Source: Polytrichum commune (Eukaryota > Streptophyta > Polytrichopsida > Polytrichales > Polytrichaceae). From it: a stretch of 64,000 nt of DNA. How positions within the stretch are numbered: the stretch's first letter is position 1; each line of letters begins with the position of its first letter. The notes beneath the pieces are model-generated. The model made no database searches, was not told the DNA's origin, and saw nothing but the letters and a program-made list of their open reading frames with translations. The DNA is taken from contig OX485809.1 of assembly GCA_950295325.1 (NCBI GenBank), positions 21,528,144 to 21,592,143 on the forward strand, written 5' to 3'. The position numbers and the translations under genes are program-made. This document shows, piece by piece, positions 15,295-42,323 of the stretch.

Positions 15295-15299
15295 CAAGG

Positions 15300-19200: not shown

Positions 19201-19336
19201 ATCTAATTTCGTAATGTCGAACATACTTAAGAGGAAAATGTAGTTTAAGTGAGTGTTTGATATTGGTTGCTTGTAAACGAATTGATTTTTTTTTGTACAC
19301 GGATACAAGTAATCGGTGTACTTTGATGACTACGGC

Positions 19337-20260
19337 AAGCGAGAGATGGGCAAAACTTAAGGAGAACATGGTGACACGGTCTGTGATACGGTCTAAATCG
19401 CAATATCAAGAAAAGTGGGAAACCCTTGCAAGTGATTTAAATTTTTTTTATGATTATCAAAAGAAAATTCCATCGGGATAAAAGACTTACTTTCAAATGG
19501 AAAATTTGGAGAGAAACAATCAATCCTCAATGAGATTTCCTAAAGTTCTTGACAATCGAAGTTTATGATGTCATAGCCGAGTGGTATCCGAGATGTTCTC
19601 GTACGGTAAATCTGGGGAACTTGCCATTTGATAGTTCATCCGTATCACCAACACATGGTAAGTAATTCATTACTTATGTTGCTATATGTTTTTTAATGAA
19701 TTTATCATTGACGAATTAAATGTGTATCTAATTTATTTGACTATACATAAATTATCCGATTTCTTCACCGGAGTCTGTTATTGGTGATGATAATTATGAT
19801 ACAAATTCCACGAAAAAACATAAACTTTCCGATAAAATTTTGGAAGGTGCATTACACGTCATGAAGGACAACACAAAAGCAATTGTGATTGTTATGAACG
19901 AAGGTGAAGTACGAGGAAATGCACGGGCGTTGCTAGGGCATGAGCGTAGAGCATAGAGCGTAGATTTTCTGAATTTCGAGCGGAGAGATTTTATTTTTAG
20001 TAATAAAATTTCCAAAAATAAAAATCATTATTATTATAAATGGTATATTCCTCAAAATATTCGATTTTTTATCCTTATGGCCGTGGAATTTAGTACCCAT
20101 AACCGTGCAAAATGGGTTTGACATATGGAAAAAATTTATATGTGACCGAGTTTTGGAGGAAATAGATGACTTCATTGAAGAGAACTACAAGGACACATGT
20201 TCACGGAAGAGCACAAGTGAAGGACAAGTACAAGTGATTCATAAATTTAACATAGCAAAA
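19337..20260 (+). pseudogene. Myb/SANT-like accessory protein of a PIF/Harbinger element, relic
   Basis: An initial piece (19337-19480) reads RWAKLKENMVTRS and KSQYQEKWETLASDL, ending KKIPSG. This resembles the Myb/trihelix-like DNA-binding part of Harbinger accessory proteins. After a stop and a frame change, VYDVIAEWYPRCSRTVNLGN leads to a splice-donor-like GTAAGT near 19660. A further piece, about 19758-19930, reads DKILEGALHVMKDNTKAIV and GEVRGNAR. A repeat beginning GAGCGTAGAGC then interrupts it. A last stretch (about 20080-20260) has RVLEEIDDFIEENYKD. Several stops and shifts make this a pseudogene. The follow-on of GNAR, HHETMDCEDARHVKTLELEH, is found 20 kb away at 40.25 kb. Confidence 0.55.
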
Positions 20261-20384
20261 TAATAATATATATATATAAATATATACGTATTCACTAAAT
20301 TGTGAAATTACATAGAGTGACGTGTGTCATACACGTTTATGAAAAATAACATATATATGAGACTAATAAATAAATCTGATTACT

Positions 20385-23300
20385 CTAAACTGTAGCATGG
20401 GCTAAGATCCCCCTTTCAAGAATTTTTTTCACCTCCAAGAAACTGAGGGTAGGCGCATGCATGAAGAGGTCATGGTCGGCCTCTAGTTTGCAGACTTGTA
20501 CGTAGAGATAGTAAAGATGCTTACAAGGTCGGAATGGACACCCGCGTCTACCCAGCTTAGCCACTGTCTCTTTGAACGCCGGGCAATTGCAGTCTGGGTA
20601 GGCACTGATTGAGAGATGGTAAACTGACTCCGTGGGAGCTGGTTTAGATTGCAAAGTTACAACGCATCCAAAACCGGGTTGAGGTATCATTACTACCTTC
20701 AGAATACTTGCCTTCATTGCTCTAGCGGAATCAATGTTCTGCATGTGCTTCGAACTGGCACAAGTGATTGAGCGGCGCATGTTCTTTGACTTTCGTGTTT
20801 TAGGATAAACGTCCGCATTATCTGGCACTGGAACCTGTGACAGATCCGGTGGCGGTGCTGAACTGTTGAACGTGCGACTCACAAGAACGCTTTGCTTTTG
20901 GGGAAGTTGAAATCCCACATTCTCCAACGCCTCAATCTCGGAACGTGTGAGATTGGTCCCTATCTTCACAGGCCAAACCGACGGGATGGGAGGTCGTTCC
21001 TCGTAATCCGAAAATGGCTCTATCCATCGTCGACGATACCCCTTCACACACCTCTCAATATCGTCAGCACAGAAAAAAAACTGCTCCACCACATTCTGGT
21101 TACCTTTTTTAGGGTGGGTCCAAAGGCCAGTGTATGTGGGAGCTGGTGTGCTCTTCCCGTTTTGGACGATACGGGATGTACATTTTTTTCGAGTGACAGC
21201 CATCTGCGCCCAACAAGCCTTCGCAGAAACCTTATTAAGTCGGGCAATGTGCCATAGCTTCTCATTCACACGAGTCTCCTCCACGGCCATCACCCGTCCA
21301 ATATCTATGCCAGTTGAGGCAGGGGGCTGTGCTGGGCGTTCCACTTCCACTTGAACTTCCTCCTGGATGGTACTCAAATTTTGAGCACGAGCACGTGTCA
21401 CCCTCCGACCCACTCGAGGACGTGAAAAATTAACAGTGTCTGGCCTATGAGTTTCTTCTTCGGCGCCAAGGGGAAGATCCGGCTTTCGTTTCCTCGACCG
21501 AAAAACCTCAGCTCCTTCGAGGTGTGCGTCTCGAGTACAAAAATCTTCGGCTCCGGGCATGTTCAAGACGGTTGCGTTCAGGGTAGTCGGATCCCCGGTT
21601 CGGTGAGCTCTGCGTTGGGCTGTCCGAAGTCGAAGTTCTTCTCTCGAGGGTCCAGAGCCTCCCGCTCCACCTTTGAGGTATTGATAGTACCCCACCACTT
21701 GCAGGAATGCTCTAACGTAATCGTCGACGGCTGCCACGTAGAGATCGCCACCCCTATTGCCGGACGCTTGCAACCATTTGTTGTGAACGGTCTCAGCAAG
21801 GTTGCAAGAGGGCATTTCAGCTAGTTCATCCGGAGAATATTTCTTCTCCTGTACGAAGGCAACTGGTTAGAAAATGTTCGGAAACTCAATTCAGCAAGGA
21901 AAAGTCGTGGTGGGCCATGCTTGCTGCAACGCATGGATCCCCTAAAAATAGATATATTTTTCAGAAGAAGTTGTTGAGACACTGAAATAAATCTCAATGA
22001 TGAAAACATAAAATTTAAAAGCTAAAGATTTGATATTGTTTAGATACTACATTAGACGCAGAGATAAGAGTGCAAACTTAAAGAATTAAAAAATTTGAAT
22101 GAAAAAGTGCATACTTACCAGTTCCATGAATCCACCCCACTGCCTATATCGGAAATGCCAAAACGCTAGCCAGTGGTTCAAATGGTGGAGGCCAGCGTCA
22201 GAGGTCACACCCGAAGATGTCCACCAGGCTTTGATTGCCAAGTAACGTGTTTCAGCCTCTGCCACAGACCGTGCATCTTTGTACTGCATACATAATTTCT
22301 TGTGTTGATCTTGCAATTCGTGCACGATGTATTGTTTGGTGTGTTTTTCTAGGGATTGCGCCCAATGGAAATAACACGTTCGCTCGCAGCCTTCCATGGG
22401 TATCTTTGGGTCTCCGGATCCGTAGATGATGCGCATAGCGTTCCAATTGGCTTGCGCACTATCAGCCATGAAACCTTTGAACTGGGGCTTGTGTATTCCA
22501 TGCCTACCCATGACATGGTTAAGGTTCTTCCAGAAAACGAGTTGAGCATCTTTGTCCTCAGACTGGAAATCACAGCAAGCAATGGTGAGTACACGTTGGT
22601 AAGAGGAGTCGTACATGTTGCAGGCCATGGTGGTCCAGTTGGCAACTCGTTTGACGTGGTCAAACATCATCCAGGATTGCTCTAAATCGCCAATAGGTTG
22701 CATTCGGCGGACAAGGTCAACACCGCTGCCAGGTCCCACCTCGGACATCTTGAATATGAAGACCTTGTCGGAGTCGTCACCTTGGCCTGGAAACATGTTT
22801 CGTTGCACGTAGGCCCAGTTGCTCAGCCCTCTGAGCTTAGTGATGCCATCAAGAACGCCATATCTGCGCAAATACTTAAAACTGTAGACACGGTTTTTTA
22901 AGTTAGGGGAATTGAGCTCCTTGTAGCATTGGAAAATAGGCTCTAGCTGTTCTAGAGAAAATAAGGTGGGAGGGTCGTCTTCTTCGCGGAGCAAGACGTT
23001 ACCTAAAACATCCTTGCTAGTTTCCAAAACTATTTTGGAAATGGTAGCCTGCGGGTTGCGCTCAACATGTTGTTCGATAAAATCGTCGATTATCTTCCGC
23101 GTGCCCCTATAGTCTCCTACCTTGACAGGATGCTTATGGTTGCCTACATGGACGCAAGCACGCTCTTGCGTATCATCTCCAAAAACGTAAAAGATTTTTG
23201 CATCACAAGAGGCTATACAAACAGGAGGTTCTTTACAGATCTTACAGACTAATGTTGAAGTTGGAGGTGGAGCGTCTGCAACAGGGAAGGCATCTTTGGA

Positions 23301-24230
23301 AGAACCTTCGAACTCGACCTCGTTCACTCCATATGCGCGTTTAGGCCGCTGCAGAAACCCACATTTGGGATTGTGGCATTGAAGATGACCTACACAGTTA
23401 GACGACCGGAATGACAACCCCAGCGTGTTACTGATGTTAGTAGTCATAGTCTTTGTCCATATATGGCCATCATAACGTTTGTCCATACCTTCCATAGATT
23501 TAGCATTCTTATGGACTGCAGATGGAAGGGTGGGAGGAAGAATGAAGATTACATCCCCATTGAACGACGGTGGCAGGAAATCTACGTTCTCAGTACAGAT
23601 GGAATCATAATTCAGTTTCTTAAGAACTGACTTGCTTCCAGGCATACTACCTAGGGAACGAATAGAGGGAAGAATGTTTATCAGTTTTGTAGTTTGCGAA
23701 GGTATAAGGAAAGGAGTAGTCCTACGTGAATCTTGAGAAGAGGAGGGAGATGGACGCTTAGCACTAGACCGGATTGATGGATGGGAAGGCCTCCCCTCAT
23801 CATCAGAAGAATCGGACAAATCGATGCTAACGCGGAGACCTGGCTCGATCTTGACACGAGATAGTAAGGGGGCTTCAGTGCACAGTGTAGAGGAACTGCG
23901 AGGAGTGAGGAGGACTGTAGTAGCGTTCATGGACTCTGACAAGCCAAAGACGCGATACTTTCCGGGCTTGAGTTTCCAAACGCGAGCATTATTGTCTAAC
24001 GTTACGGCCTGGACGTATAAGGAATAAAGGACATTTTGAGTTTCCGGATTGACAACATCTGTCTCTAATCACAAGCTATCAGCATCGAAACCAAAACGAA
24101 TGGATAGCCACTGGGGAGTGAAATCAGCGGTTCCATCAAGGCCAGGAGGTATGCATGTAGGGATAAGAGATCCAGGAGAAACAAGTTCGATGACATCGAC
24201 GAGTGGAGCTTGGACAGCAGCGGAAGACAT
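20385..24230 (-). pseudogene. MULE-type transposase with GCM-like zinc cluster and SWIM finger; one premature TGA
   Basis: Exon 1 is 24230-22119 and exon 2 is 21848-20385, joined in phase 0 by a 270-bp GTAAGT...TACAG intron; about 1,191 codons. A Ser/Pro-rich N-terminal part is followed at about residues 258-370 by a Cys/His-rich region (CVGHLQCHNPKCGF ... CKICKEPPVC ... CVHVGNHKHPV) like the WRKY-GCM1 zinc cluster of transposases. The catalytic region has YDSSYQRVLTIACCDFQSED, GFMADSAQAN and, in exon 2, SCNLAETVHNKW, consistent with the MULE D-D-E order. A SWIM finger near the C-terminus has CNCPAFKE ... CPFRPCKHLYYL. Its expected role is DNA cleavage and transposition in the nucleus. The single defect seen is TGA at 24069-24071 (codon 54). 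TIRs were not found, so element ends are unknown. It may still be functional if translation starts downstream, for example at 23942. Confidence 0.8.
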
Positions 24231-24423
24231 TGAGAAACAATTTGACAATGCTATGTGAGAAGGAATTTGCAAAAGGGGGATCGAAAAGAAACAATGGGAT
24301 ATATACATGAGAGGTTGATGAAGACGTTGGACATCCAAGACATGTACAGAATGTAGTCAGAAAATGTTTGGTTAATCATGAGAAATATTAATAATCTGTA
24401 TAAACAGTAGTGTGAACAATACA

Positions 24424-24861
24424 TCATGGAGTGGGAGACGAAAATGGGGCCTTTGCCATATGGGGCCCTTTGCCATATTTGTCATTGTCATGTTTATGAC
24501 AATGATTAATCCCTAAACTACGAACTGCAGTGCATCCTGCGCAATCGAGTTTCTGACCTTTGGCACTCCTCAATATGGATCTAGAGTAAGTGTCAGGTTT
24601 AATAACCCCTGCTCTAGAATAGGGATGAATCTTGAAAGTAGACTTGTTCTGTATCAGTGATGCATCAACTGCCTGCAAAGATGGAGTCTGTGGTTGAGGA
24701 GTGGGAACCACGACCGCAAGAGTAACTGAGCAGTCAGGTGGGTTGGCATTCTTCATGTTCTTGACGTCTGCAGAACCATCGATGGACAACGTTGTGTGAA
24801 TTTGAGATGAACTAGAAGCACCTAATGGAGCAAGGTTTGGGAGACGTGAGTCAGTACCCAT
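24424..24861 (-). CDS. Hypothetical protein, 145 codons, upstream of the MULE gene
   Basis: A single open minus-strand frame starts MGTDSRLPNLAPLG. It is Ser/Thr/Pro-rich, with a short Cys/His cluster near the end (CAGCTAVRSLGINHCHKHD). It lies just upstream of the MULE transposase on the same strand, so it could be an accessory or 5' exon of the same element. No family is recognised and no splice join is obvious. Confidence 0.3.
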   Translation of the reverse strand: MGTDSRLPNLAPLGASSSSQIHTTLSIDGSADVKNMKNANPPDCSVTLAVVVPTPQPQTPSLQAVDASLIQNKSTFKIHPYSRAGVIKPDTYSRSILRSAKGQKLDCAGCTAVRSLGINHCHKHDNDKYGKGPHMAKAPFSSPTP

Positions 24862-24889
24862 TGGAGAAGATATTGATGAGATGACATGA

Positions 24890-25470
24890 AGGAAAAGGGT
24901 AGCAATAATCGGGTATTATATATAATTTGGGTAGACAACAATACCCGAATAATTGACAACTTATTAGATCAATTAATAGTCAATATTTATTCATGTAAAT
25001 TCTGGACAACCTGTTTCATGTAGGATTAGAATGTACTCCAGTAATAGTCATTACTTCCTGACCACCAAATATGATACATGTCAGTATAGACTAATTTTTA
25101 TACGCAACCAAAAATAACCCAATATATGCTATGCCAAAATGCTGAAGTTAAACCCTAAAGGTGTCTGTACCTTAAATGGAAAAACATAACAATTCAAAAA
25201 TTTCTGGAGGCCGACATTGTCAGGGGAGATGCGTAAATATATTGACATATTTTAAATAGATTAGTAATTGATGTCAGTGTTGTAAGATATCTAATCTCGG
25301 ATTCCGCGTTTTTATTAAACGCGGGATTATAACTCGATGACATAGCTTGCTAGAAATTAAATATAAAGGAAAGGGATTCGGAGGACTAGGTCATTCAAAT
25401 ACAAGTTGTGTTGTAGTTGGGTTAGGGTGTTATTGTTGTTTTACAAATTTGTGTTCATTGATCGAAGTAT
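24890..25470. other. Intergenic region between divergent genes, with small palindromes
   Basis: AT-rich sequence separates the minus-strand MULE block from the plus-strand acidic-protein gene. It contains TCGGGTATT...AATACCCGA near 24920-24957 and a hairpin CCGCGTTTTTATTAAACGCGG near 25306-25327. It may include the promoter and 5' UTR of the gene starting at 25477. Confidence 0.35.
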
Positions 25471-25476
25471 CCAACC

Positions 25477-26640
25477 ATGGAGGCTACGAGTAGTAAAACA
25501 GACAAAGTGAATGAGGTAGGGCGGGGGAGGAAGAAGAAGAGAGGTGGTATAAAATTCAGTGGGGCCAAGGCTTTGCGACGGAACGCGTTGCGGAAGAGGG
25601 ATGCCCCGGGTTCTTGCGAAGACGATCGAATAGTAGATGAAGAAGATAAGAACGATGAGGACGAGCCAGGAATGTTCAGAAAGACTATCACGATGCGGCC
25701 GTTGAACTTGGATGCAGTTGTAGAAAATGTTGATGGTGAAGAAGAAGATGATGGAGGGGAAAAGGACAATGCAATTGAAGAGCAAGAATGTAGAAGGCCC
25801 TCATCATCGAGGAGTGATTCTTTGGGATTCGAAAACGACAGTGACGAAGAAGGGATCGATAAAGTTGTAAGTTCCAAGACCCTTAAACCTTGAAAATGAG
25901 TAGTAAACTTCAGTCATAGTCTTACTTGCTTATCGTGCGATCCTGTGGGGTGAACCTAACAGAGGCAAAGGGTAGATGTTACAAAGATAAATTATGGCTT
26001 ATGATGCCTATAATATCATACAAACTTATGTCATAGACGTTTGTTCTAGGAATTTGTTCTAGGAACTTAATATCTAGGAATTAGTTTCTAAAGTTTGTTT
26101 GTCACCTGATTGTTGCCTGTTGTATGTACGTGTTAATAACGTCTTAGTATAAGTAAGTGGCACTTGACGATGAAACGACACATTAATAAAAAATCAATCT
26201 ACATGACCCTCAATATTGGCAGTCAGATATTCAATTATAAACGAAAAAATTAATGAACGTGGGAGTCAAAGTGGCTGGATAACTGGGAACACTCGGCAGT
26301 TCGGGCAGACACCTCCAACCCACCTGGTAGACAGAGCGGGACCCTCCGAGCAGGTCGGGTAGCGATGGATTGTTTGGGAAGGTCTCCATAACATATCTTA
26401 TTGCAAATGACCGCCTTTGATTGAATCGAATTTGCAATATATGTTACTAGGAAATGGCAGCTGAAGGAGGATGTGCAGTTACAAGGTTGGAGGGCACCCC
26501 GGAAAACGTCGACGAAGATTTGGAGAACGTAAGTCCTTCATCTTCATCGAGTCATTTCAATGGGTCCATTGTGAAGGGAGCATTGTGAGGTAAGTGTGAT
26601 TTTAAAACCCTAAAATATTATTTGTTGATAGTTGCAATGA
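25477..26640 (+). CDS. Acidic, low-complexity protein of unknown function (three exons proposed)
   Basis: ATG at 25477 has a favourable context (CAACCATGG). Exon 1 is 25477-25866 (donor GTAAGT) and exon 2 is 26451-26528 (acceptor ACTAG, donor GTAAGT). A short exon from 26632 ends at TGA after two codons, giving about 158 residues. The product opens with a Lys/Arg-rich segment (GRKKKRGGIKFSGAKALRRN), then long Asp/Glu tracts. This suggests a nuclear or chromatin-associated protein, but no domain is recognised. It lies about 1.2 kb upstream of the ParB-methyltransferase-like gene on the same strand. Exon 3 is tentative. Confidence 0.4.
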
Positions 26641-26792
26641 GATGGCGGATTGTCACGATGCTTCTGAACCAAGTTGTGATTGAATTTGTGAGACCCATCT
26701 GTCTGGTGGTTGTCAAGTGCCGATGAAGACCATTCGCAGCTCAGAGGCTAGTAGGGTTTGTTTTTGCGGTACATTTTTCTGCTATACCCTCT

Positions 26793-27402
26793 GCCTTGAT
26801 GAATTTGTGCGCCGATGATGAGCTTCTGGCTCTAAGGCAGGATAGGGTATATAGTTTGATTTTCGGCAGTTTGCTTTAGGAAAATGGGTGACCCCTGCGT
26901 TGGCGCAGGGGTCCTTTCTGCCTTGATGAATTTGTGCGCCGATGATGAGCTTCTGAATCAGAGGCAGGTTAGGGTATATAGTTTGATTTTTGCAGTTTGC
27001 TTTAGGAAATTGGGTGACCCAGGGGTCCTTTCTGCCTTGATGAATTTGTGCGCCGATGATGAGCTTCTGGCTCTGAGGCAGGATAGGGCATATAGTTTGA
27101 TTTTCGGCAGTTTGCTTTAGGAAAATGGGTGACCCTTGCGTTGGCGTAGGGGTCCTTTCTGCCTTGATGAATTTGTGCGCCGATGATGAGCTTCTGGCTC
27201 TGAGGCACGATAGGGTATATAGTTTGATTTTCGGCAGTTTGCTTTAGGAAATTGGGTGATCCCTGCGTTGGCGCAGGGGTCCTTTCTGCCTTGATGAATT
27301 TGTGCGCCGATGATGAGCTTCTGGCTCTGAGGCAGGATAGGGTATATAGTTTGATTTTTTGCACTTTGCTTTAGGAAATTGGGTGACCCCAGGGGTCCTT
27401 TC
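26793..27402 (+). repeat. Tandem repeat, five units of about 127 bp, each with a hairpin
   Basis: Units start with GCCTTGATGAATTTGTGCGC at 26793, 26920, 27034, 27161 and 27288, giving periods 127, 114, 127 and 127; the last unit ends near 27402. Most unit junctions contain the inverted repeat CCCTGCG-TTGG-CGCAGGG (some degenerate). The 114-bp unit lacks one arm. Each unit retains part of an open frame (MNLCADDELLALRQDR), so the array may have arisen from a coding fragment or 5' UTR. It sits directly upstream of the ParB-methyltransferase-like gene. Confidence 0.85.
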
Positions 27403-28599
27403 TACTATAGGTTATATGAATATTTTTTTGTCATGTGATGATGGCCTATTTATTCTAATCCATATTCATTTTTTTTTGTAGGTTTCTTCACAGAGAGTAC
27501 ATGGAGCCGAGTACAACAATTACTTGTCCGAGATGCTTAGTGGTTTCAACATTGTCTTAGCTAGTCGTCGTTTAGTCATAGGTTTACTTACTATAACTTA
27601 GCTAGTCGTCGTTTATAGTACTTCATATTTTTTTCCTAAGTGTATTGTGTTTCATTTACCTATCTTCCAGATGACATTATCCGATGTTCCCGTACCCGAG
27701 CAAGTCCCACCTCCCTCGATAGATTCCTTGGAGGAGGATTGTGGCATTCCCCCTCAACATTCTTCAATCCTAGATGTTGCCGACTTGGAGGAGGATGTCC
27801 CATCCTCCGATCAACATGCTGCCGATACCACACAAGAGGCCACCCAAGAAGCCGATACCATACAAGAGGCCACCCAAGAAGCGCCCGATTCAAGCGACAA
27901 ACGCTCGTCAAATCCCTTACGTCCTCCTGGTGGTGTTGAACTTGGCATTGTTCACATGCCCCCTCATCTGCAGGACAAGGACCCCATGTGGAGCGCAAAT
28001 GAGATGAGATTGCTGCAGAAGAGTGACTACAATATTGTCATCTCCAATCTTCGCACCAAACCCATTAAGAAGTCTCGATTCCTTATTCCTCTTTACCGTC
28101 TCAAGACCTACCCGAAGGTGCGTCCAATTGTCGATTCCGACGTCGAGATATTGGCGAACGAGTTCGTCAAAGGGTATCGAGAAGGAGATCGAGTTTTGTA
28201 TGTGTCTCCTTTCGACATCACGGATAAGAACCTAGCGGTTCGAAAGGATGACGCCATCTGGTCTAACCCACTATGAAAGTATGCTAATAATGAGTTCGAA
28301 GAGTACTTGTCGTCTGATCCTGATCTCCATCAGTTTCGAAACAAATACTTTTATGTCTACGAAGGTAATCACCGCGTGACGGCTTGGATGGGTTACATCC
28401 ACAAGTACCATTCCAATAATCCTGACTGGTACATTTCGGTTGACTGTATTGTTCTCAACGCACGTGGGCAATGCTCAATGCTTCTCAACGCCATGAACGA
28501 CATAAACTGGTAAGTATACTTGCAAATCCATTTCCATTAATTTCATATTCCATTTACCCATGGAAGCCTTGTTTTAATATTCATATCTTCATTTACAGG

Positions 28600-29763
28600 C
28601 ACTACAAGGAAATGGGTGTATAATTGACAAAAATGTGACACTAAAATGTCCGAAGTGACAAAATCAGCTCAAAGCTATGAATTTTTGTCAATTCGAACAT
28701 TATTCAAAATTTGTGTCAATTTTCTGTCATCAGATTTATATATTTCACGTTTAACTTATTCCCTTCACCTGAGCATGTGTCTCATATTTATTAACAACAA
28801 AAGGTGTTACAAAAGGTTTTTAATTATTGTAATTACTAGTATAAGTAATTAATATAATTAATGTATTTACTATAATTAATGTAATAACTAATTTAATTAA
28901 TTAATGTAAATACTGAAATTACCCTTTTGAGTAAATACTGAAATTACCAATTTAAGTAAATGGGGAAATTACCAATTTAACTAAATACTGAAATTTGCTA
29001 ATTTAAGTAAATATTGAAATTTGCTAATTTAGGTAAATACTGGAATTTGCTAATTTAAGTAAATACTGAAATTTTCTATTTTCAGTAAAATACTGAAATT
29101 ATTGTAATTAATGTAGTTAAAATAATTACAATAATTATTGTAATAATGTTTAGGAGTATTTTTGTAAATTGTTTTTAATACAAATACAATATGTACTAAT
29201 TAAAAACAGTAAATACATTAATTCTATGCTTGTTTTTACTTTCACTAATTAAAAAATATATATACATAAGTTTATAAGTCTTATGGCTTCTTCATACAAA
29301 AATCTTACATACTTGGCCTATGTCATATAATGAGCGGTGGCTTAGTGGCTAAGGCCTTCACACTATAGCCAAGAGGTTCAAGGTTCGATCCCCTTGACCC
29401 CTCACCCTTGGGTAGGTAGGTGGGCTTTGTCCATTAGCCTAGGTTAGGTGAGGTGGCCGTTGCCCTTAGACCTATGTGAGTAGGCCCCGAATGCGAGGGT
29501 GGGATTACTAATTTAGGATTTTTTTACTAGTATAACTTGGACATTAAACCACATCACCATGGGTAAATGACGAGGTAAAGAGAATCCAACATGGCAAGGG
29601 GGCCGGAGTAAATGGAATCACACGTGTATAATTATCCCAGATGACAAAGAAATTGACAGAACTCTGTTAATTGTATAACCGAATCAAGGTGCCCTATATG
29701 ACACCCAAATTAACAGAATTTCGTCACATTTTTGTCAAATAGGTCATATAAACTCTTGTAGTG
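28600..29763. mobile_element. Non-autonomous CACTA element in intron 1 of the ParB-methyltransferase-like gene
   Basis: It begins CACTACAAGGAAATGGGTG at 28600 and ends ...ACTCTTGTAGTG at 29763. Beyond the CACTACAAG ends, subterminal TTGACAAAAATGTGAC and its inverse GTCACATTTTTGTCAA match. The 3-bp direct repeat AGG flanks it (28597-28599 and 29764-29766). CACTA ends plus a 3-bp duplication identify an En/Spm-type element. The interior is AT-rich, non-coding, with repeated 'TAAGTAAATACTGAAATT' units (about 28890-29100), and contains a SINE. The duplicated AGG carries the AG of the splice acceptor, so the intron can still end with AG at 29764-29765. Confidence 0.88.
29331..29527 (+). mobile_element. 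tRNA-derived SINE inside the CACTA element
   Basis: The 5' part reads GAGCGGTGGCTTAGTGGC, an A-box-like TGGCTTAGTGG. About 37 bases on it has GGTTCGATCCCC, a B-box-like sequence. This is the internal RNA polymerase III promoter layout of a tRNA-derived SINE. A tRNA-unrelated body follows with GTAGGTAGG and TAGGCCCCGAATGCGAGG, ending in a T-run near 29520-29525. Target duplications were not clear. Confidence 0.65.
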
Positions 29764-30246
29764 AGGTCGACGGAACATGATCATGTTCAAGACAGTACTA
29801 TTGCCAAATTGCAAAGAATTCGAACCTTCAGCTCCTTCAAACTTTCTGATTTCAAAGGTCTTATTAGCAAATATGACATGGCTATTTGCGAGGCTTATAA
29901 ACCCCGTCTACCGTCATGGTATCCACTCACAATGGACATTTTTGTTAAATTCCTCCACGCGGTAAGTTTTCTAAAGTTATGTGCTTATCGTTTTCATATT
30001 ATGAAATGCATCATGCGTTTCTTGCATCTTAATTATTGTCGTACAGAGACAATGCGCTGCTGCATCCGACGCTGCTTGCTCGAACTATTACGAGACTGTG
30101 CCCGAGAATGAGAGGATTGGGCCTGGAGTCTGGAGTGCGATGGACAAGGCCATCACGAAGTGTGTCAAGCATTGACGCAGCCAAAGGTTCGACAAGATGG
30201 TTGCAATCGCCAACCCAGCCAATAGAGAGTTATTTGAACAAGAGGT

Positions 30247-30295
30247 ATTCTCAACTCTCAACTCAACTCTCAACTCAACTCTCAACCCTCAACTC
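30247..30295 (+). repeat. CTCAACT heptamer minisatellite in intron 3
   Basis: Repeats of CTCAACT/CTCAACTCAACT begin directly after the donor GTATT of the intron 30245-30311 of the ParB-methyltransferase-like gene. Confidence 0.85.
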
Positions 30296-31628
30296 TTCAT
30301 TTTCCACGCAGCTCAATAAACACTATACTAGCGGGAAATCATTGGACTTGACCGTTGAGCGACTTCATAAAATTGCAACCACCAAGGTCCATCCTGACTT
30401 CAAAGGGAAATGGTTGCAATTGTGGAACGGAACGGACGAGGAACGGACAGCCTATCAATTTCCACTAGATCGTCCAATGAAGGATAAATTCCTCGACGTC
30501 TGGTTGCCAAGGGCTTCTCTCTGGGCTCAGGTATGACGATACTTACTTCCTCTAGGCTCTTCATTTTTAATCCGTTGAAATTGTCGTTACTTCTAACACC
30601 CATCGTTTCATAATGTATGTCAGTTGTCTACTTTCCTTAAAGACCACATGGACAACTATGTCGCTAAACTTAAGATCAACATTGAGTGGAACTCCGTTGT
30701 TCTCAAGCCGGCGGAATACGTGGAGAAATGGAGATCGCTATTGTGGAAGAAGGCTTTCCCCTTCTACCTCTCGGAAAATGCAAGCCCAAGGTTTCTCAAA
30801 GGTTCAGAGCTCCTTAAGATTGAAGGTGGAATTTTGGCGGGCCGCTTGTTTTACAGGTTTGTATGATTTGGCTTCTTGTTTGATTTAGTGTTCTCTTTGT
30901 CTCTATCACCCTTCCTAAATGTAACGCATATATGCAAGTACATGAAGCAATAGCTCATCGTCAAACGTGCTCTTGCGGCTTGGGAAGTTCCGGCTCATGT
31001 CGAGCTCAAACCGTCTACCCAAACGCCTATTGATGGACTTTGGACCAAAGACCAACGCAATCGATTTCCCTATGAGGTGTTGCTCACAGGTGGTTGGTTC
31101 CTCGAGTGCCCACAGAACTTCGTTCCTGAGGAGGAGAAACACCTCGTCCCTGTCCCGGAACCATCTGTAGGAGGAGCGGCTCCTATGGTCACTGACTTGA
31201 ACGATGACGACGACGACGACGAGGCAACTCAGCCTGAACCTGCTCCGAAGCCAAAAGTTCAACGTCGAGGGAAGGTTCATTCTCGCGACGGTTCCGTTGT
31301 GGCAGCCTCACCTGCAGGTGTTCAAATTCCTGCAGGAGCTCCTTTGGCTTCGACTCAGATTTCGCAACGCACGGTTTCTAATCCGCCATCACCCCCACGT
31401 TCCAACTTGGATGTTCAATCTAGCCAAAATCTTCGTGTCACACTCTCTGGCCGTGGTGTACCACCCCCGAAAGGTGTAGGTGTCATTTCGTCTTCGCCGT
31501 TTAAGACGACCCTGCCGATGTTTCTTGAGCATGGAAACTTCTGTGCCTTGCTTAACCAGTCTGAACACCAGAAATTCATGGATCGGCAACTTGTCCGTAT
31601 CGTAGACCACATTATCAAGGTCACACAA

Positions 31629-31838
31629 TCCCAACTCAACTCTCAACTCTCAATTCAATTCTCACCTCTCAACTCTCAACTCTCAACTCTCACCTCTCAA
31701 CTCTCAACTCTCAACTCTCACCTCTCAACTCTCAACTCTCACTTCTCAACTCTCACCTCTCAACTCTCAACTCTCACTTCTCAACTCTCACCTCTCAACT
31801 CTCACCTCTCAACTCTCAACTCTCAACTCTCACTAACT
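31629..31838 (+). repeat. CTCAACT/CTCACCT heptamer minisatellite in intron 6
   Basis: About 30 units of 7 bp (CTCAACT with CTCACCT and CTCACTT variants) fill most of the intron 31620-31920. The same heptamer occurs in intron 3 of the same gene. Confidence 0.9.
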
Positions 31839-34822
31839 CTATCAATTTCAAAATTGTCTTGGACTAGTAAGGTTTTTTTTATCGGTAACTCATGCTTTCC
31901 ATTTTTTCTTATTCATACAGATCGGGGTCGGCCGTACTTATCCTTGTGAATCGATGCAAATGCGGCCTAGGCATCCTGGAATTGATCTCGTGATTGTTGA
32001 CGCTCCAGAAGACTTGGTCGTGCCTGTCATCTCTCCCATGTCCGTACCGTCGTGGAACAAGCGAGAGACAGACTACTTTGACCAACTCTTCGCCTTTGCA
32101 GATTGTCACTTGACCAATGACGGAGTTGTTCTCCTCTTCCATCCCAAGGACCGTCGAATCGAGAAGAAGTTAGATAGTAAAATCAAAATCTATGATTTTA
32201 CGATTGTCCGGGATTGGTGGGGCTATAATCCCATTCCCATGGCCTCCTCCCTTCCACACCAGAAAGAGGTATTATCTTTTATGTTCATAATTTGAATTTC
32301 TCAATCCGACAATCAGTTTCAATATATTCTAATCCTTGAGGTTTTCTTACAGACCCATAACTTCAACATTAAGGTCTTTGCACGCCTTAGTTCCAAGTTC
32401 CGTACTCGGCGATTGCGACCGCAGTTCGTACAAATGGAGATCCTTCCCGAAGAGCGCGACGACTTGACGAACTTCACGACAACCGAGTCCCAGCTTCTAC
32501 GCCCTACTGGACTTCCTTGGCGTGGCTCGCGTGAGAAGGACCCATCCTTTGTTCAGTGCTTCATCGAGTGTTTTACAGACGAGCATGATATCGTCTGCGA
32601 CTGGAGCCCTAGTACAGGTTTTCAATATCTCCCTTCATTGTTTACAACAACTGAAACTGAATTCCACTTTCTAAATTCCGTTTTCCAAACTGCAGGTGCT
32701 TCTGTCATTGTTTGCCAACGTTCGAACCTACACCTCATCGCATTGGAGCCGGATTCAGAAATCTTTGAGGCGCTTCTCAAGCCTTACGTGGATGCGATCC
32801 CGCAACCAGAGCGCGCGGATTCAACCACAGACTCTGATTCCTACGAAGACATTGCGCCAAAGAAGAAGAAGGGTCGCAAATATTGCGGTGCGTCTTAACT
32901 GCATGTCTTAAGTCTCTCAAATATTTAATGTATTCATATAATTTGTCATGTTGACTTTGTTTTATTATTTAGTGACGCAGGTCTCGCAAGACGTTTGATC
33001 CGCCACGGTGATGTCTACATGAGTCCTCCTACTTTGTTCGCCTTACCTTCATATGCTGAACGTATAGCACAAGAATTCATACGCGCCCCATCTCCAATCC
33101 TTTCAGATTTTCCACGTCAACTTTTCAACCCTACAGTGCTTAGATTCATGGATGTCGAGGCTGATCAATGTGACGAGAGTTTCGATGTTGGTTCACCTTG
33201 ATCAAGACTATCCATATGTTTGTTTCTGGTTTGTTACGTGCATAATGTAGCCATTTCAAATGGCCATTTCTTTTTAAAATAAAACATCTACAAGTTTCTT
33301 TGTGTCATAGCTATTGTAGACTTGTCAAAGAAGTTCAAAGAAGTTGAAGTTTGAAAGTTTGAGTTATGCCATTTGCACTGAAATGCATGTGCACGCTTCT
33401 AACTTGAACACTGAATTGACTCTATCTAACAAAACTTTGTCATATCTAGTGACATTTGGGAGATGTCACTAGATGGAACTCCCAATTTTTAATACATACA
33501 TGAATTTTTCTCGCCATCATATTTGTTGCTTCACAATTGCTCCTTTGTTTGTTTTGAATAAGTCTATGGCTTAGAATAGGTGTCTACAACACCCTTGCTT
33601 CAAATATTTATGTTAAATTGCTCAAGCCTCCAATAATTTATATTCCAACGCCCAATCCTTCCTTTCAGATTTGCTAACACATTGATATTTTCACTCCATG
33701 CTCTTTGCACTCCTAGGTTACCAATTCCCTTGAATTGTCATGAATAGGTGTCTCTACCTTAGAGGGTGTATAAACCAACACTCGAGAGGGCTTAGCCGAT
33801 TTAGATCAACGGTATAAATGATTGGCTTAGCAAATTGACCTAGATTTATGGGTTGCTCGACCCAACTCTCGACGCAACCTCCAAACCTAACTATGGAATA
33901 CAATATGCACGGTTGCCTGGCCTTGGCAGCCTCGCCTTTGCCGTCGCAACCTCGCCCTCGCCCTCGCCCTCGCAACCTCGCGCTCACCGTTGCAACCTAG
34001 AGAAAGGACCAAGTACACTTTGACGGGGCAGTAACCGGCCATTGCAGGTGAAGTGCATTTACAAGACCGGCCATTGCAGGTCAACATAGGACATCGTGCC
34101 GGACGGGCTTCGGGGGCCTGCCCGCTGAAAAAAAAAGGAGCGGGCCGCCGTGTCCCGCATGCCCTTGTCCATGCCTCAACTCCAAGGCCAAGGCATTACT
34201 CAACACTAGGCTTGGGAGAATATTATGAGGGAAATTGATCCTTGAAATAGAATGGATCTTTATCACGGGGGGTGCACCTACACTTAATTTATGTATACAT
34301 GTGCGAGAACCCCCTATTTAATGGGGGGTATTTACCTTCCTTCGTTGAATATTTTCTACCCTATAAGTAGTTAAATTTCTACTGAATGGTATTTTCTAAC
34401 ACCCTGTCATTGTATATAAATTTAAAGATGTATGGTTTTAATCACCCTATCTTATTTATAAATAATAAAGAGTTGTGGGTTTAGGGTAGGGTTTAGGGTA
34501 CTTTTCATCCAGGTAACCGTTTCAACAACTTCATTCACATGTTCACATACAATTGTTTATTTCTCATCCAATGCCACTAATGACACATAATTTATGTTGA
34601 ACCTATAAATATTAAAAAATTAAATTTATTTTTATTTATGTTACTTTATATCTAAATAATAATAAATACCACAACTTAAACCATACCATACATTATATAT
34701 AATTCCCAAACTTACATTTAGAGGACGCTATTGTATATCTAAAAGAATGTAAAAATTATGTGTCTTGAATAAAATCCACCCTATATTTTCTCGCACGTGG
34801 TTTTCTAAATTTTTGCCAGTGA

Positions 34823-34841
34823 CCCCCCCCCCCCCCCCCCC
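34823..34841. repeat. Homopolymer C19
   Basis: Nineteen consecutive C bases in AT-rich DNA. Confidence 0.9.
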
Positions 34842-35647
34842 GTGATCTTTATTTTAAAGATATAGTCCAATCTTTGTTCAATATATGTCTTTTTGGCATA
34901 ATATAATCATATTCAAATATTATATTATTCAAATATCTATTGTCAACTCATGTATCATCATGAAAAGTAGGTATATTGCTAGCGTATTGGGGGTCCGCCC
35001 ATACAATTCAATTATGAATCAACCAAATAGTTCAAATCTTGGAACCATGTCCAAATTTAATCCAAAAAACGTTCCTTGTCCCCAATCAATATATGCATGG
35101 CTATAACCCAATGAAAATGAAGGTGTATGTGTCCAACCATGAGGCCCAATTGCTTGCCTCTCATTTGAGAGTTCTAATGATAAAATGAGGTAGCGGGGGA
35201 TGTCAATCCAACTACACTCTTTGGACTCCTCTATCAAGAGTTTTTGAAAATATTTGTATTTGTTTGGAGTTACAAGCTCTTATTTCATACCATCTATATT
35301 GCCTAAACTTGTTGTATATATATGTTTAAGCTCATATTTATTGTGATGATTTTGTATTCCCTCAGTAATATGACAACTTTACGCCACTTGTCATATGAAT
35401 GAGAAGACGACACCTAGATAACATGACCTTTTTGTGTTTCTCACACGTGTCATACTGAAGAGGGTGAACAATAATGACATTCATGTTCTGTTTGGATGAA
35501 TTTGCATGTTAATCTCTTTAATTCTTGGAGGACATAACTCTCCTCCGTCACTTAAGGTCGTCCTAAGCCGGTATCAATAAGATAACATCGAAATGCAAGG
35601 CTTGGAAGAAATTTCACCAGATTTTAAAAATAACAACATAATACTAT

Positions 35648-35692
35648 GGGTTAAGGGTTTAGGGTTTAGGGTTTAAGGTTTAAGGGGTTTAG
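35648..35692 (+). repeat. Telomere-like GGGTTTA block
   Basis: Several units of GGTTTAG/GGTTTAA, close to the plant telomere repeat TTTAGGG. A shorter similar block is at 34480-34503. Internal position and degeneration suggest an interstitial relic. Confidence 0.6.
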
Positions 35693-35789
35693 CATGAATG
35701 CAAGAACATTGAGTGAGCATTCTTACTTGGTTCAAGGACAATATAATTGGCATATTGTAGTTTGCGCTTGGGTCAAGATAGTGGTATTT

Positions 35790-36126
35790 GAGTTATCCTT
35801 TAATTCAACATGACTTTTGGTAGGGAGTTGGTTGTTTTGCTTACAAAACCTTCCATGTTTGGTAAGTTTTTGGTGCATGCGTGGAGGTGGTGTGGAGGTT
35901 TGAACAAAGAACATTACATATTTGGTTCATGGAGGGTCAAACTCATTTTGGCATGCCAAGAGGTGCTAAAATGAGTTTGACCCTCCATGAACCAATATAT
36001 AATGTTCTTTGTTCAAACCTCCACACCACCTCCACGCATGCACCAAAAACTTACCAAACATGGAAGGTTTTGTAAGCAAAACAACCAACTCCCTACCAAA
36101 AGTCATGTTGAATTAAAGGATAACTC
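35790..36126. repeat. Near-perfect inverted repeat, arms about 160 bp, 18-base loop
   Basis: The left arm 35790-35949 (GAGTTATCCTTTAATTCAAC ...) is matched by the right arm 35968-36126. I see only one substitution and one indel, around ACATTACATATTTGG versus its counterpart. Transcription would give a long hairpin RNA. It may be a recent MITE, a foldback duplication or a young hairpin-RNA locus; no coding potential is evident. Confidence 0.9.
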
Positions 36127-37214
36127 TATTATTTGATGTAAAGTGTAGACAACCAATCTCTGGTTATATTTGGTTATTAGATGCCTATATTTGAGTAGCA
36201 CGTGGTTTGGTGTGCTGTCTACAAAGTAAGAATCAATATTGTCGGCCCCATGCAATGGCTAAAATTATATGTGGATTTGGAAGTGCATGCAATAGGCCCA
36301 CATACTTCTACTCCAATCCATGAAAACAATGGTCTTCGCAATGGTGATTGTGATGTGGTCCTAGTCTCACTGCACATTTGAGAGGCCATAGAACCTGCTC
36401 CATCATTCTCATGTGATGAAAGATAGTGGATGTGATTAAGATATGTTTTTACAATATATTGGACTCGTGTTCAAATCACTTAATTATTCTAGATTTAATA
36501 GTCAACACGGTCGGAGATTCTATATGATCCTTTAATGAGCACAAGAATCTTTGCTTTGACATTGCATGAAGATATTCATACGAGCTCCACAAATCATAAG
36601 GAGAGTTGCTAAAACCTCAATTTAGGGTCTAACCATCTTGAGCTCAAGTCTCATAGTGTGTTTCATATCTTACAAGAAGTAGGGTAGTTGGAAAAAATAA
36701 CAATTTAAAGACTCATCTACCTAACATTACAATGGGTCATTCAACAATTGGTTACGCAACCGCAATAGTGAAATGCTTGCATAAAGTGCGAAGTGGCCAT
36801 TTTAAGAAAGGCTCATGGTAACACATCAAATAGCAATCTTGAGCCATATTGTTAAATTGGGAATACCAATCACCAAGAGAGTAGACCCTATACATATTCT
36901 ACATGCTCGCTCTACACAAAGCACTTCAAGGTGTGGGACCATTAAGCTTATGGTGAGTTTCCATGTAGGCTGCTCATCCATTAGATTTTAGAAAATATTG
37001 GGTTGGAGGGGTTTGTATGTAGTTAAGCATAAGCCGTCATCCAAACACATTATGGCAGTCCGCTAGAATGTGGGGGGCCATGGACACATGCCGCTAAATT
37101 TCCATGCATCCACTAAAAAATCTTTAACTTACACGTTTCGGACACCAAAGGATTGAAGACCCAATTTTAGCATGGAGGAGGTTACTAATGGGCCTAAATT
37201 CATAAGTTGGGAGT
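36127..37214. other. Gene-free stretch with family A repeat fragment
   Basis: Contains a family A copy at about 36460-36700 (GGACTCGTGTTCAAATCACT, AGTCAACACGGTC, ACGAGCTCCACAAAT). No gene was recognised. Confidence 0.45.
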
Positions 37215-37594
37215 AGCTACACTAAATATGATATTTAGTGCCACCAATGTTAATTGTCTTGCTCAATACCAATTGTAAACTATGGTAGTGTCACCAACAC
37301 TAGATGTTAAGTTAACATTATTTGTCATTCCTTGTAATATTTTTGGGAGATTAAAGATTTACAGTGTTGTAATTACCGTCACTAACCAAGTGATTTTTCA
37401 TCCAAATTTGAGTCATCCATGACAATATTTCATCACAAATGACTAACAAAAGAAGGTAGGGCTATGAACAATGGATGAACTCATCCATCATCAATGACAA
37501 TATTTGTTGACTTATTCACAAGAAGTGCCATCCAAAAAGTTACCATAGTGACATTAAGTATCATATGACACTGAATATCATGTTTAGTGTAGTT
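37215..37594. mobile_element. MITE family B, copy 1
   Basis: AGCTACACTAAATATGATAT at the left and the inverse of AACTACACTAAACATGATAT at the right form TIRs of about 26 bp. The interior (GTGTCACCAACACTA, CAAGTGATTTTTCATCCAAA) is shared with related sequences at 45062-45355, 51476-51880 and, inverted, about 52100-52430. No coding capacity. A target duplication was not clear. Confidence 0.65.
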
Positions 37595-40130
37595 GGCACA
37601 TGCGAACCCTACCCACTAGATTCCCTCTACATTTGGGCGGGTTTGTCCTTATTAATACTAGAATATGGCAGGCAAGGGGCCTACATGAAAACTCATCCTT
37701 TTATGAACTTGCAAAACACGAGCTTTTGCATAGAAAAATGGAGCTAAAATTCTATTTGGTCAAAGATTACAAATTATTGATGGTTGATTCCTTTATGTAG
37801 GGGTGAAGATCTCATACACTCCATATGTTGCATATTTGAAGGGGAGAAGCCAACTTCTATTTTGTGAGGATGGATCATGGGAACATGTGAATGACTGCTC
37901 TTTGGTTCAAATTCAACCTTCAACATACAATTGGAGATGTTGGTATTGACAACATGTCCCAACATTGTCTAGTGCTCTAACCATGTTTTAGGATTGCCAA
38001 GGTGAGATTTTACAAAGTAGGTATGCACACATTATCGTTATTTGCAAATTAGAGATGTTATTTCCATTTTAAACTCTCCCAACCCCTTCAAAATGCAACA
38101 TAGAGGGGGGACAATATCAACTCTTATATAATAAGAGAACCATTCCCCACTTATGTCATGATTTTGATTAATATGAAGTCATGGTTTCAAAAAAAAAATT
38201 TGGAACTCTTATGTATTGCAAGAAACTAGTTGTAACTCGTGCCATCCCAATATGTTGCACCCTTGCATATGAAATATGAAAACATTAAATGAAGTCCGCT
38301 TGTGATCTAAGCTGACCCCTTTGCTCATGTTCTTAGAATGATGGGACAAGGCCCTCACACCCACCAACTACAACTATGTTGTATATATAATTTACTTTTA
38401 CGTATTTTAGAATAGATCATAAGACCCAAAGCTTGAAGTGCTCATATAGAGTGAATGTGTGGAACACATAGATGTAAAGTGACACTCACATCATGAAATA
38501 TCACATAATTGGTGTGTGGGTTTAGATTTTAGTACAACTACTGAGTTTAAAACGTTTTTGGCCCTTGAGTTTGATTAGGTCAATGAGTTTTTGTGTGTCA
38601 TGAGATGTAAAATGGAACTCACATCATGAGTTTTTGTTTGTGATGCGATTTAAAATGACACTCACATCATGAGCATGAGTTCCTCCAAGTCTCTTTGGGG
38701 AGGGGACGTCATTACCCTTGCATTTTCCTCGGGCAGGCTTGGTTGCCCGGGTGATGTCAATGACGCCCAAGTACAACCGGTTGCTCCAGTAGCCACCCGT
38801 CAACGATGACGGGCGTACTCACCAACCGCGGGTGCAAGGGTACAACAACGAGAGCGAGGCTACGACGGCAAGAGCAAGGCTGCGACCGCGAGCACCATGC
38901 CGCGAAAGCCAAGCAACCGTGCATATTGTATTCCATACATAGGACTTATTAGGACCCCACGTGAAGTAATAAGTCCCAATTTTTATCCTTTCAACAACTA
39001 AGTTTGCACATATTGACCTTAAGTGAACTAAGACTTGGGACCCCTTTTGAACCAACCCTTAGTGAACCGCCCTCGTTCACATCGACTTAAAGTGCCGAAT
39101 TTATTTTTCTTTTCTTTCTTTATTCCCCGGCCCAAGGAAGATGGTGGTCCACCAAATTGTCCTATTAGTGTGGGTTACCATTTGGGGTTACGTATTGCTA
39201 GAACTTTTTACCGACATTATTATATTTTAACTAACTAGATTACATCATATTCTTTAGTGTGCGTACTAAATACTTGTGTCATTTGGGTAAAAAATTATAC
39301 TCTCTATAAAATATTATAGCAATGCGTAACTGCAAACAATAACCCCCACTAATTAGGCAAAATAGCGTAGTAAATACCATAAGCCTTGTAGTTGAATTTT
39401 AACATTGGCTAGGCATTTTTAAAATTTAAGATCATGACTGGTCATCTCTAGATTCCACCTATAAGAAGATAGAGCAATATTACTTTATAAGTTATCCATA
39501 AATCAGAATAAGGAAAACTTATTTGGAAATCAACGTCTAGAATTTGACAATGACTTAGTTGAAGAATGAGGTAAGTAAACCTAATTTGGTTACTTATCTT
39601 GATTGAAAATAATTATGTTTAAATGGTCTTTGGTTAAGTGTGTATCCAAGAATGGACACCAAGAAGACATGTGTTTGATAGATTTGGAAGAAAGGCATAA
39701 TGTTCCTCAATAAACCACACAATGTTTAATACTCTCAAACAATATTCTTTACTAAAATTGTCGGCACTACCCTCTCCACTGAGATTCTAGATTGAGGGGA
39801 CCTACCTACATGACCGATTAACAAGCACAAGAATATTCACTTGTTGGATTGTATAAACTTTGCCATTTAAATTATTGTTTTGAGGATGCCAGCCCTAATT
39901 ACGCCCTTAGCCTTAAACACTGAAATAAATTTGTTAATTAATTAAAACACAATTTCATTTCAACCTTGAACAGTCCTCATTTAAATCACCCTTTCATATA
40001 AATGATGACGTCAGCCCTAATTTCACTATATATATAATAACAAAAATTTGCAGTAGGACCCCCTTCCACGGATTTGGGGTACTCTTTTCCCTAAAAATAT
40101 ACATTTATAGTTTTCTCCGGACCAAATTAA
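37595..40130. other. Gene-free stretch with repeats
   Basis: Holds the inverted partner (38790-38950) of the repeat at 33890-34030, a family A copy at about 39610-39840, and AT-rich sequence. No coding gene was recognised. Confidence 0.45.
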
Positions 40131-40340
40131 GTGGTAATAGGATCCTTATGTTTCAATAAAATTTTGAAAAGCGAGCGGAGAAATTCACGAAAACATGACG
40201 CTCACCGCTCTACGCTCTACGCTCATGCTGTAACTTTCCCCGGAAATGCACGACATCACGAAACAATGGATTGTGAAGACGCTCGACATGTTAAGACGTT
40301 GGAGCTCGAACATCGATGGATCACATCTACCGAATAATAT
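40131..40340 (+). pseudogene. C-terminal piece of a Harbinger Myb-like accessory protein
   Basis: At 40248-40340 the plus strand reads GNARHHETMDCEDARHVKTL then ELEHRW and soon a stop. It continues, in protein terms, the GEVRGNAR end of the relic at 19.3-19.9 kb. Directly upstream is GCTCTACGCTCTACGCTC, the inverse of the GAGCGTAGAGC repeat that interrupts the other relic. It lies 1 kb from the Harbinger transposase pseudogene, so it is probably part of that element. Confidence 0.4.
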
Positions 40341-41366: not shown

Positions 41367-41457
41367 AGAAAGAGAAACTACGGTCTCCGGAGGAGACCGA
41401 AGTGAATTAAGTGTCTGTTCAATCCACCCCCAATCCGATGCCCACAGGACAAAGGGT
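41367..41457. mobile_element. 91-bp insertion with 10-bp target duplication in the Harbinger transposase
   Basis: The direct repeat ACGTTCTACA occurs at 41357-41366 and 41458-41467. Removing the insert plus one repeat joins HLSTRTCVER to AFGILKGVWR in frame, so the insertion history is secure. The insert has a small palindrome CGGTCTCC-GGAGGAGACCG but no clear TIR. A 9-10-bp duplication would fit a MULE-type MITE or a repair-filler event; the class is open. Confidence 0.75.
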
Positions 41458-42323
41458 ACGTTCTACACATGTACGTGTGCTCAAATGTTTGAAGTTGTTC
41501 GATTGAAACATAAGTGACAAACGTTGTCCCGACCGTGGGACAGACATATTTTTGCTTGCCGTGTATCCCGCATCGCCTATAATAAATTCATGAATATCTA
41601 CACATTGAATGTCGATTGTAGTTCCATTCAGTCTTTCATCATTGGTAACAAGTAATTGATGATTGGAGCAAGAAAAAACACGACTATCGTGTACGGAACC
41701 CGGAAACCCGGCAAAAATATCAATGAATCTGGATTTAAAATCTACAATTGGTTGTAAAATCATACTATAATTGTGATCTCTATCAAACCAATCAACACTA
41801 TTAATATCAAAAGGTTCATCTAAGAGAATATGAGTGCAATCAATTGTACCACAACATTGTGGAATATCATAAATGTTTTGAAATTCAAGTTTTACATTGA
41901 CCAACTCTTCATCGGCTACTTTAAATGTAAAGGTATTGCGGCGATCAAAAGAGATTTCACAAACCTTTTGGAAGTCTTCACACTTGTACATGCCGCAACT
42001 CCAAACACCTCATCCACGTAGTAATGTGAATATCCGGTCGCTAGTCGACACAAAGCTATAGCAACTTGCTTAAGAATAGTCATCCACCTCCCAATAACGG
42101 TTCTTAAACATGGAGGCAGATTTCTCTCCATGTGTACCCCGACAATGTTACAAATATAATCAAAATTTTCAACAGAAACTCAAAAAAAACTCTTAAATCT
42201 CTCTGGATCGTCTCACATTATGAGATCTAAATAATGATCCCACCAATGCAAGGACCTTGGCTTGATATACCATGGCCCATATGAAACTCCCAACATTTCC
42301 ACCTTACGAATACATTCTATATA

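Follow-up and report, generated by a model that had tools for sequence, protein, structure and literature searches.

Does a spliced moss gene that joins a ParB-like region to a DNA-methyltransferase-like region serve its host or a mobile element, and what might its product do? The gene in question occupies positions 27671-33201 of a 64,000-nt stretch of the Polytrichum commune genome (contig OX485809.1, positions 21,528,144 to 21,592,143), which we call the window and whose first letter is position 1 in all coordinates below. The initial annotation, made from the letters alone, suggested a captured gene that had either been domesticated or become mobile-element cargo with a non-catalytic DNA- or nucleotide-binding role. 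We find that it is the accessory (cargo) gene of a terminal inverted repeat (TIR) DNA transposon, and that it was under purifying selection while the element multiplied. Repeated perfect palindromes ahead of the gene may be docking sites of its protein, and they suggest an element that regulates or protects itself.

The cargo half of that proposal was borne out by shared element boundaries, TIRs and target duplications (Table 1). In the ten other element copies that were fetched for comparison, the 3' boundary near 40241 is common to all, and the 5' boundary at 19925 is common to the five whose fetched stretch extends so far. The element ends are imperfect inverted repeats with GCATGAGCGTAGAGC in both, and among the six copies with both ends read (window included) the 10-bp target duplication is exact in four, imperfect in one and missing from one. 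Because 10 bp fits the 8-11 bp target duplications of Mutator-like elements (MULEs; PMC6446971, in excerpt), the element is provisionally called MULE-like. The accessory gene lies on the (+) strand, opposite to the transposase-like open reading frames (ORFs) on the (-) strand, the transposase being identified by ORF layout only.

The ten-exon model of about 1,126 codons proposed for the window copy also stands: the exons, separated by GT-AG introns, splice in phase into 1,126 codons plus a stop, with the exon-2 acceptor read across an inserted element, and the motifs GNHR, DAPE and DWSPSTG are found where they had been placed. This copy is dead as it stands, because it has in-frame TGA codons at 202 and 388 and a CACTA-like insertion at the start of exon 2. 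The insertion is missing from the same site in the ten fetched copies, and a nucleotide search gave 23 near-full-length matches to it elsewhere in the genome.

A genome-wide count, one of the checks that the initial annotation had proposed, gave 16 close copies of the gene including that of the window (81-100% identity in the ParB-like exon; 14 place clusters by DNA) and at least 121 further, diverged loci that match the same exon at 40-55% identity; both counts are lower bounds, with 137 of 1,198 candidates scored. The methyltransferase-like part, counted exon by exon, has at least 233 genome matches (142 of 2,229 candidates scored). Only one of the eight copies translated in full (window included), that at C5:15.6, is free of internal stops, and it encodes 1,116 aa; of the six others besides the window copy, one has a frameshift and each of the remaining five has between one and three internal stops. 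Splice dinucleotides are conserved in the seven translated copies outside the window, apart from the exon-5 acceptor of C7:40.37, the exon-10 acceptor of C1:17.5 and the exon-1 donor of C4:44.0. The element copy with the intact accessory gene is probably not autonomous, because it has no counterpart of window segment 20236-21995, the loss of which cuts the transposase-like ORFs.

Selection among the copies, a further comparison proposed at the outset, proved to be purifying, with a pairwise ratio of nonsynonymous to synonymous substitution rates (dN/dS) of 0.32-0.43 between two subfamilies. Four recent pairs have ratios of 0.80-1.44 and three further pairs 0.44-0.57, a pattern that is expected of an active lineage shedding decaying copies. 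When C5:15.6 is compared by region with five copies of the other subfamily, the lowest values are those of the ParB-like (0.22), middle (0.24) and methyltransferase-like (0.19) regions, and the highest are those of the N-terminus (0.59), the exon-6 linker (0.63) and the tail (0.41). Exchange between subfamilies is suggested, because dS is uneven across the regions (0.07-0.24).

Profile comparison shows a predicted beta-class DNA-methyltransferase fold in the C-terminal half, with altered catalytic (DAPE) and S-adenosylmethionine (SAM; DWSPSTG) motifs, and the significance of these comparisons upholds the original domain call. The half matches phage methyltransferases at E 3e-4 (tblastn), a PHROGs DNA-methyltransferase family at E 0.001 and Pfam N6_N4_Mtase only at E 0.13. 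The profile alignment (Prob 91.9) extends over 193 columns from the DPPY position (here DAPE) to the FxGxG loop (here DWSPSTG). A profile score of 50.4 compares with a shuffle maximum of 23.5 (80 shuffles). With methyltransferases picked via their ParB part, and not via similarity, the score is 37.2 (shuffle maximum 24.2, 80 shuffles); from the rest of the protein, three stretches score at most 21 against this set. A family profile gives Prob 94.9 over 64 columns and 92.0 over 200 columns.

Catalytic motifs of the DPPY and FxGxG types do not occur in the gene, which has DAPE (10 of 11 copies) and DWSPSTG (9 of 11) instead. Among 20 diverged relatives, hand-chosen from the genome matches listed for the methyltransferase-like part, the motif IV column reads D-x-P-[ED] in 14 of 16 and DPP in none of the 16, and the G-x-G SAM motif is retained in 19 of 20. 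Because of these counts, the altered motif IV appears, in the relatives read, to be old and common to them, and the degraded motif I to be peculiar to the window's family. The motifs make a loss of catalysis likely. The initial annotation had described both catalytic motifs as replaced; this holds for the methyltransferase motifs and not for the GxxR of the ParB-like half, which is not replaced because GNHR is kept in 9 of 11 copies.

The N-terminal half appears to resemble ParB in motif and order only, and its reading as ParB-like also draws on a published class of fusions. The string KSRF.IPL.RL...P.VRP...DV..L..EF..GYREGDR..YVS ... V[YW]EGNHR.TAW ... DCI ... NAM.D.N fits ParB in its motifs and their order and is preserved in diverged relatives, 20 pieces of which have GNH throughout and GNHR in 18. 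The ParB-like signature was thus correctly described, but the profile, structure and PDB tests of it did not reach significance. An hhalign comparison of the copies with eight phage ParB domains scored 13.9, below the shuffle maximum of 18.7 (50 shuffles); with an inserted segment removed, it scored 14.3, which 24 of 200 shuffles reached. A 21-row family profile scored 13.0 against ParB (maximum 19.0, 100 shuffles), or 12.6 (maximum 18.5) with the segment removed. Where a ParB alignment exists, GxxR aligns on GxxR, without significance. An AlphaFold model of most of exon 1, from a single sequence, had a predicted local distance difference test (pLDDT) score of 40, and ParB was not among the best 50 of its 355 Foldseek matches. 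There are weak matches to DUF6551 (E 0.011, one of the sequences tested) and to phrog_1033, ‘ParB-like partition protein’ (E 0.14, one of eight members), and a tblastn search of phages and plasmids with the ParB-like part gave nothing below E 8. A match in a Gordonia phage was rejected as a ParB relative, since it corresponds to DUF7236. Recent capture is not seen, because scans of viral contigs (both parts) and prokaryote genomes (methyltransferase-like part), which reach close relatives only, yielded no relative.

Upstream of the gene, Tandem Repeats Finder (TRF) reports arrays of at least 100 bp in 10 of 11 copies and none in C6:9.55. The array units differ, being 127 bp in the window's subfamily (2.8-11.8 units among its members), approximately 168 bp in three copies, and of other kinds in C4:53.4 and C4:44.0. 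All the same, the palindrome GACCCCTGCG-N4-CGCAGGGGTC, or a variant of it, is retained. Every one of the 13 copies with the region read has the core of this palindrome with at most one mismatch, and in 11 of them the nearest palindrome lies 401 to 410 bp ahead of the ATG, the exceptions being C4:44.0 (-433) and C4:53.4 (about -825 by its own ATG). The inner core CCTGCG-N4-CGCAGG is conserved in the window's family, and the upstream sequences of different subfamilies are poorly alignable at the palindrome region. With up to two mismatches allowed, every site in the window and in ten copies fetched with their flanks falls inside an element, all sequence upstream of copies with an unfetched 5' end being scored as inside. 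The 408-Mb genome contains 103 exact sites (reversed control, 0), of which 54 are listed at element copies, 24 are in fetched copies on other contigs and 25 are unplaced; 51 of the 54 belong to one long array at C2:69.44. The outer arms are altered together on both sides in two copies (GGTC/GACC and GGTG/CACC), and arm symmetry exceeds that of partner-shuffled controls at three of four outer positions (83 sites, those of the same array being related). Rfam gave no match.

We also examined 1.3-1.8 kb upstream of each of nine diverged loci. Tandem arrays with a period above 60 bp are present in seven, and three have their own repeated palindromes with a shared core. One is GAGGCCTCGGATCCGAGGCCTC, present four times; another, of 25 bp, is present twice; those of the third locus, of 36 bp, have a constant 18-bp core and differ by one matched change on both arms. 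The genome as a whole contains 1,903 occurrences of one relative's 22-bp palindrome. A CGG-NN-CCG core is present in four of the nine upstream pieces, at no site in 43.6 kb of control sequence from the window and at three sites in 68 kb of copy flanks; as a shared core of the relatives' palindromes it is not claimed, being post hoc and found within the window's family (11 copies) only in C4:44.0.

This layout is consistent with a protein whose binding sites are the arrayed palindromes of its own promoter region. With a probability of about 0.5, we favor the reading that the accessory protein, as a dimer on the palindromes, regulates or protects its own element, and that its methyltransferase-like half is non-catalytic. 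The arraying of the palindromes would provide for binding at high density, and the bound protein would regulate its own transcription or keep the element free of silencing chromatin (cf. VANC of VANDAL elements), while the methyltransferase-like half would serve as a DNA- or SAM-binding module. Several observations weigh against this reading. The ParB similarity is without significance, as described above; Pfam gives no MULE or SWIM match for the transposase-like ORFs (limit E 10, although the HMMER filters drop most matches above about 0.1); and the arm covariation amounts to about two independent arm changes. Repeated palindromes with arms of at least 9 were not found in the 1.3-1.8 kb upstream of six of the nine relatives, which have at most one such palindrome each (in C4:42.80 a shorter one is present twice). 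Background DNA often has a single inverted repeat: of 31 control pieces from the window, 11 have at least one and four of these two or more; tandem repetition of the same inverted repeat occurs in none of the printed control rows, one of which is a low-complexity AT repeat counted twice. A more far-reaching version, in which family-matched ParB-like proteins load on the arrayed palindromes, spread along the element and block silencing as a transposon-borne analog of ParB-parS, with the altered methyltransferase fold reading or holding DNA and with coevolution of protein and palindrome at more than 100 loci of one genome, is speculative and rather unlikely.

The arrays lie between two divergent genes, and therefore the product of either, transposase or accessory protein, could use the palindromes. 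It is nevertheless doubtful that they are transposase or host-factor sites and that the accessory protein has a different role, such as that of a partner to the transposase: the distance from the nearest palindrome to the accessory ATG is kept across subfamilies, and the TIRs, which are the usual transposase sites, have no palindrome. DNA or RNA hairpins, or by-products of repeat turnover with no dedicated binding protein, would account for palindromes that differ strongly in sequence between families and keep their symmetry, but hardly for the conserved inner core and its fixed position in the window's family, and we regard this explanation as improbable. That the protein is a working DNA methyltransferase with an unusual motif, one that marks the element encoding it, is likewise an outside possibility, and the same has been proposed for Ectocarpus Sola1-1 and for similar proteins of other algae (PMC12477816, in excerpt); the window's gene retains the D and P of motif IV, and G-x-G and D-x-P-[ED] are kept in most relatives (19 of 20 and 14 of 16), but none of the 16 has DPP at motif IV, and motif I is more degraded (SPSTG) in the window's own subfamily. 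Least probable by far is the capture of a prokaryotic gene and its domestication by the host. The purifying selection that would agree with it acted on a mobile lineage, the recent copies decay (dN/dS 0.80-1.44), and the one intact copy among the eight translated is also within a transposon. Domestication, the other half of the initial proposal, is thus unsupported, because the gene is multicopy, mobile and decaying.

To our knowledge, the escape of DNA transposons from silencing is known in detail for few systems. The present family is large, includes numerous diverged copies and one that is intact, and has candidate binding sites; it therefore allows direct tests of how ParB-methyltransferase proteins encoded by transposons function, how specific they are and how they coevolve. 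Palindromic sites beside a gene with a ParB-like motif recall the parABS system (ParB-parS), but ParA was not noticed in the element, no search aimed at it having been made, and ParB membership here is at the level of motifs.

ParB-methyltransferase accessory genes have already been reported in algal transposons, namely Ectocarpus Sola1-1_Ec32, with similar green and red algal proteins cited, and it was suggested that these proteins bind the element that encodes them and modify it (PMC12477816, in excerpt). Compared by description only, Sola1-1_Ec32 likewise has an accessory gene that runs opposite to the transposase and encodes ParB-like and DNA-methyltransferase-like domains (1,104 aa there vs 1,116 aa here). 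It differs from the moss element, which is MULE-like (10-bp target duplication) and not Sola1, has altered motifs IV and I, and contains palindrome arrays. The available text of PMC12477816 has no mention of such arrays; the literature search was not aimed at palindromes, and no priority is claimed. The present gene is a motif-altered variant of this class with candidate binding sites. Bacterial and phage ParB-methylase fusions (e.g., Bce_0392; PMC5512222, in excerpt) have the same order of a ParB-like region followed by a beta-class methyltransferase, but the four phage fusions compared are 392-431 aa long with intact DPP[YF] and GxG, whereas the moss gene is spliced, has altered motifs and has approximately 500 aa between the domains.

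VANC, the accessory protein of Arabidopsis VANDAL MULEs, binds tandemly arrayed motifs and induces loss of methylation, and its targets are fast-changing tandem repeats (PMC5735166, in excerpt). Both are accessory genes of MULE or MULE-like elements with fast-evolving tandem repeats in non-coding regions and introns, but the moss element has palindromes of 24 bp as its candidate targets (those of one relative reach 36 bp) in place of the short VANC motif YAGTATTAY, and DUF1985, the VANC domain, has no Pfam match in the accessory protein. By analogy, an anti-silencing role like that of VANC is proposed.

Table 1. Positions of the transposon, its genes and its repeats in the window.
Feature	Position	Strand	Remarks
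Target-site duplication GGAAATGCAC, left	19915..19924		Repeated at 40242-40251
TIR DNA transposon	19925..40241		Target duplication and motif layout are MULE-like; contains nested insertions of later date
Transposase-like gene, C-terminal ORF	20385..21866	-	SWIM-like CxC...CxH by eye; dN/dS 0.59 vs C7:40.37
Transposase-like gene, DDE-like ORF	22086..24068	-	Layout by eye; dN/dS 0.25
Tandem array upstream of cargo gene	26790..27390	+	127-bp unit; TRF
24-bp palindrome GACCCCTGCGTTGGCGCAGGGGTC	26890..26913		0 in 100 dinucleotide shuffles
Palindrome	27131..27154		2 mismatches
Palindrome	27258..27281		1 mismatch; core 409 bp ahead of ATG
Cargo exon 1	27671..28509	+	ParB-like region with GNHR; TGA at codon 202
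Nested non-autonomous CACTA-like element	28600..29763		1,164 bp; ends CACTACAAGG...CTTGTAGTG; target duplication AGG; at exon 2 start
Cargo exon 2	29766..29961	+	
Cargo exon 3	30047..30244	+	TGA at codon 388
Cargo exon 4	30312..30530	+	
Cargo exon 5	30624..30860	+	
Cargo exon 6	30954..31619	+	Low-constraint linker
Intron 6	31620..31920	+	CTCAACT heptamer array
Cargo exon 7	31921..32268	+	DAPE at motif IV position
Cargo exon 8	32353..32617	+	DWSPSTG at motif I position
Cargo exon 9	32696..32887	+	
Cargo exon 10 and stop	32981..33201	+	
Later insertion within element	33892..38936		Missing in four close-subfamily copies (about 45 bp there)
Target-site duplication GGAAATGCAC, right	40242..40251		

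Other repeats were seen in and around the elements. CTCAACT heptamer arrays in introns 3 (30245-30311, short) and 6 (31620-31920) are another candidate repeated target; they measure 48 to approximately 500 bp where TRF reports them, and lie mostly on one strand inside the element. One element copy, at C2:69.440-69.4527 Mb, has a palindrome array of more than 12 kb, with a spacing of mostly about 169 bp or multiples of it. The upstream arrays of C4:44.0 contain two further families of perfect palindromes, AACCCAGCCTCGGAGGCTGGGTT and ACCCTCTCGGATCCGAGAGGGT, and just past the 3' end of this copy come a 139-bp array that includes a related palindrome and then pieces of a diverged accessory-gene relative (E 1e-9 and 3e-9). 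Outside the element in the flank of C6:9.55, the palindrome CGG-AA-CCG occurs three times, measuring up to 24 bp in full, and is of the type found in the arrays of the relatives.

Elsewhere in the window, a 988-aa ORF at 16363-19329 (-) matches RNase H (E 1.8e-14) and, below threshold, Pfam PCIF1_WW (E 8.3e-7), and looks like a retroelement protein; the shorter ORFs at 6669-7562 and 14794-15486 are by eye similar to its C-terminal part. ORFs at 41419-42009 (-) and 1254-2706 (-) resemble, by eye, transposases of the PIF/Harbinger and pogo/Tigger types, and exons at 55281-59268 (+) look like those of a cofactor-independent phosphoglycerate mutase gene, an ordinary host gene.

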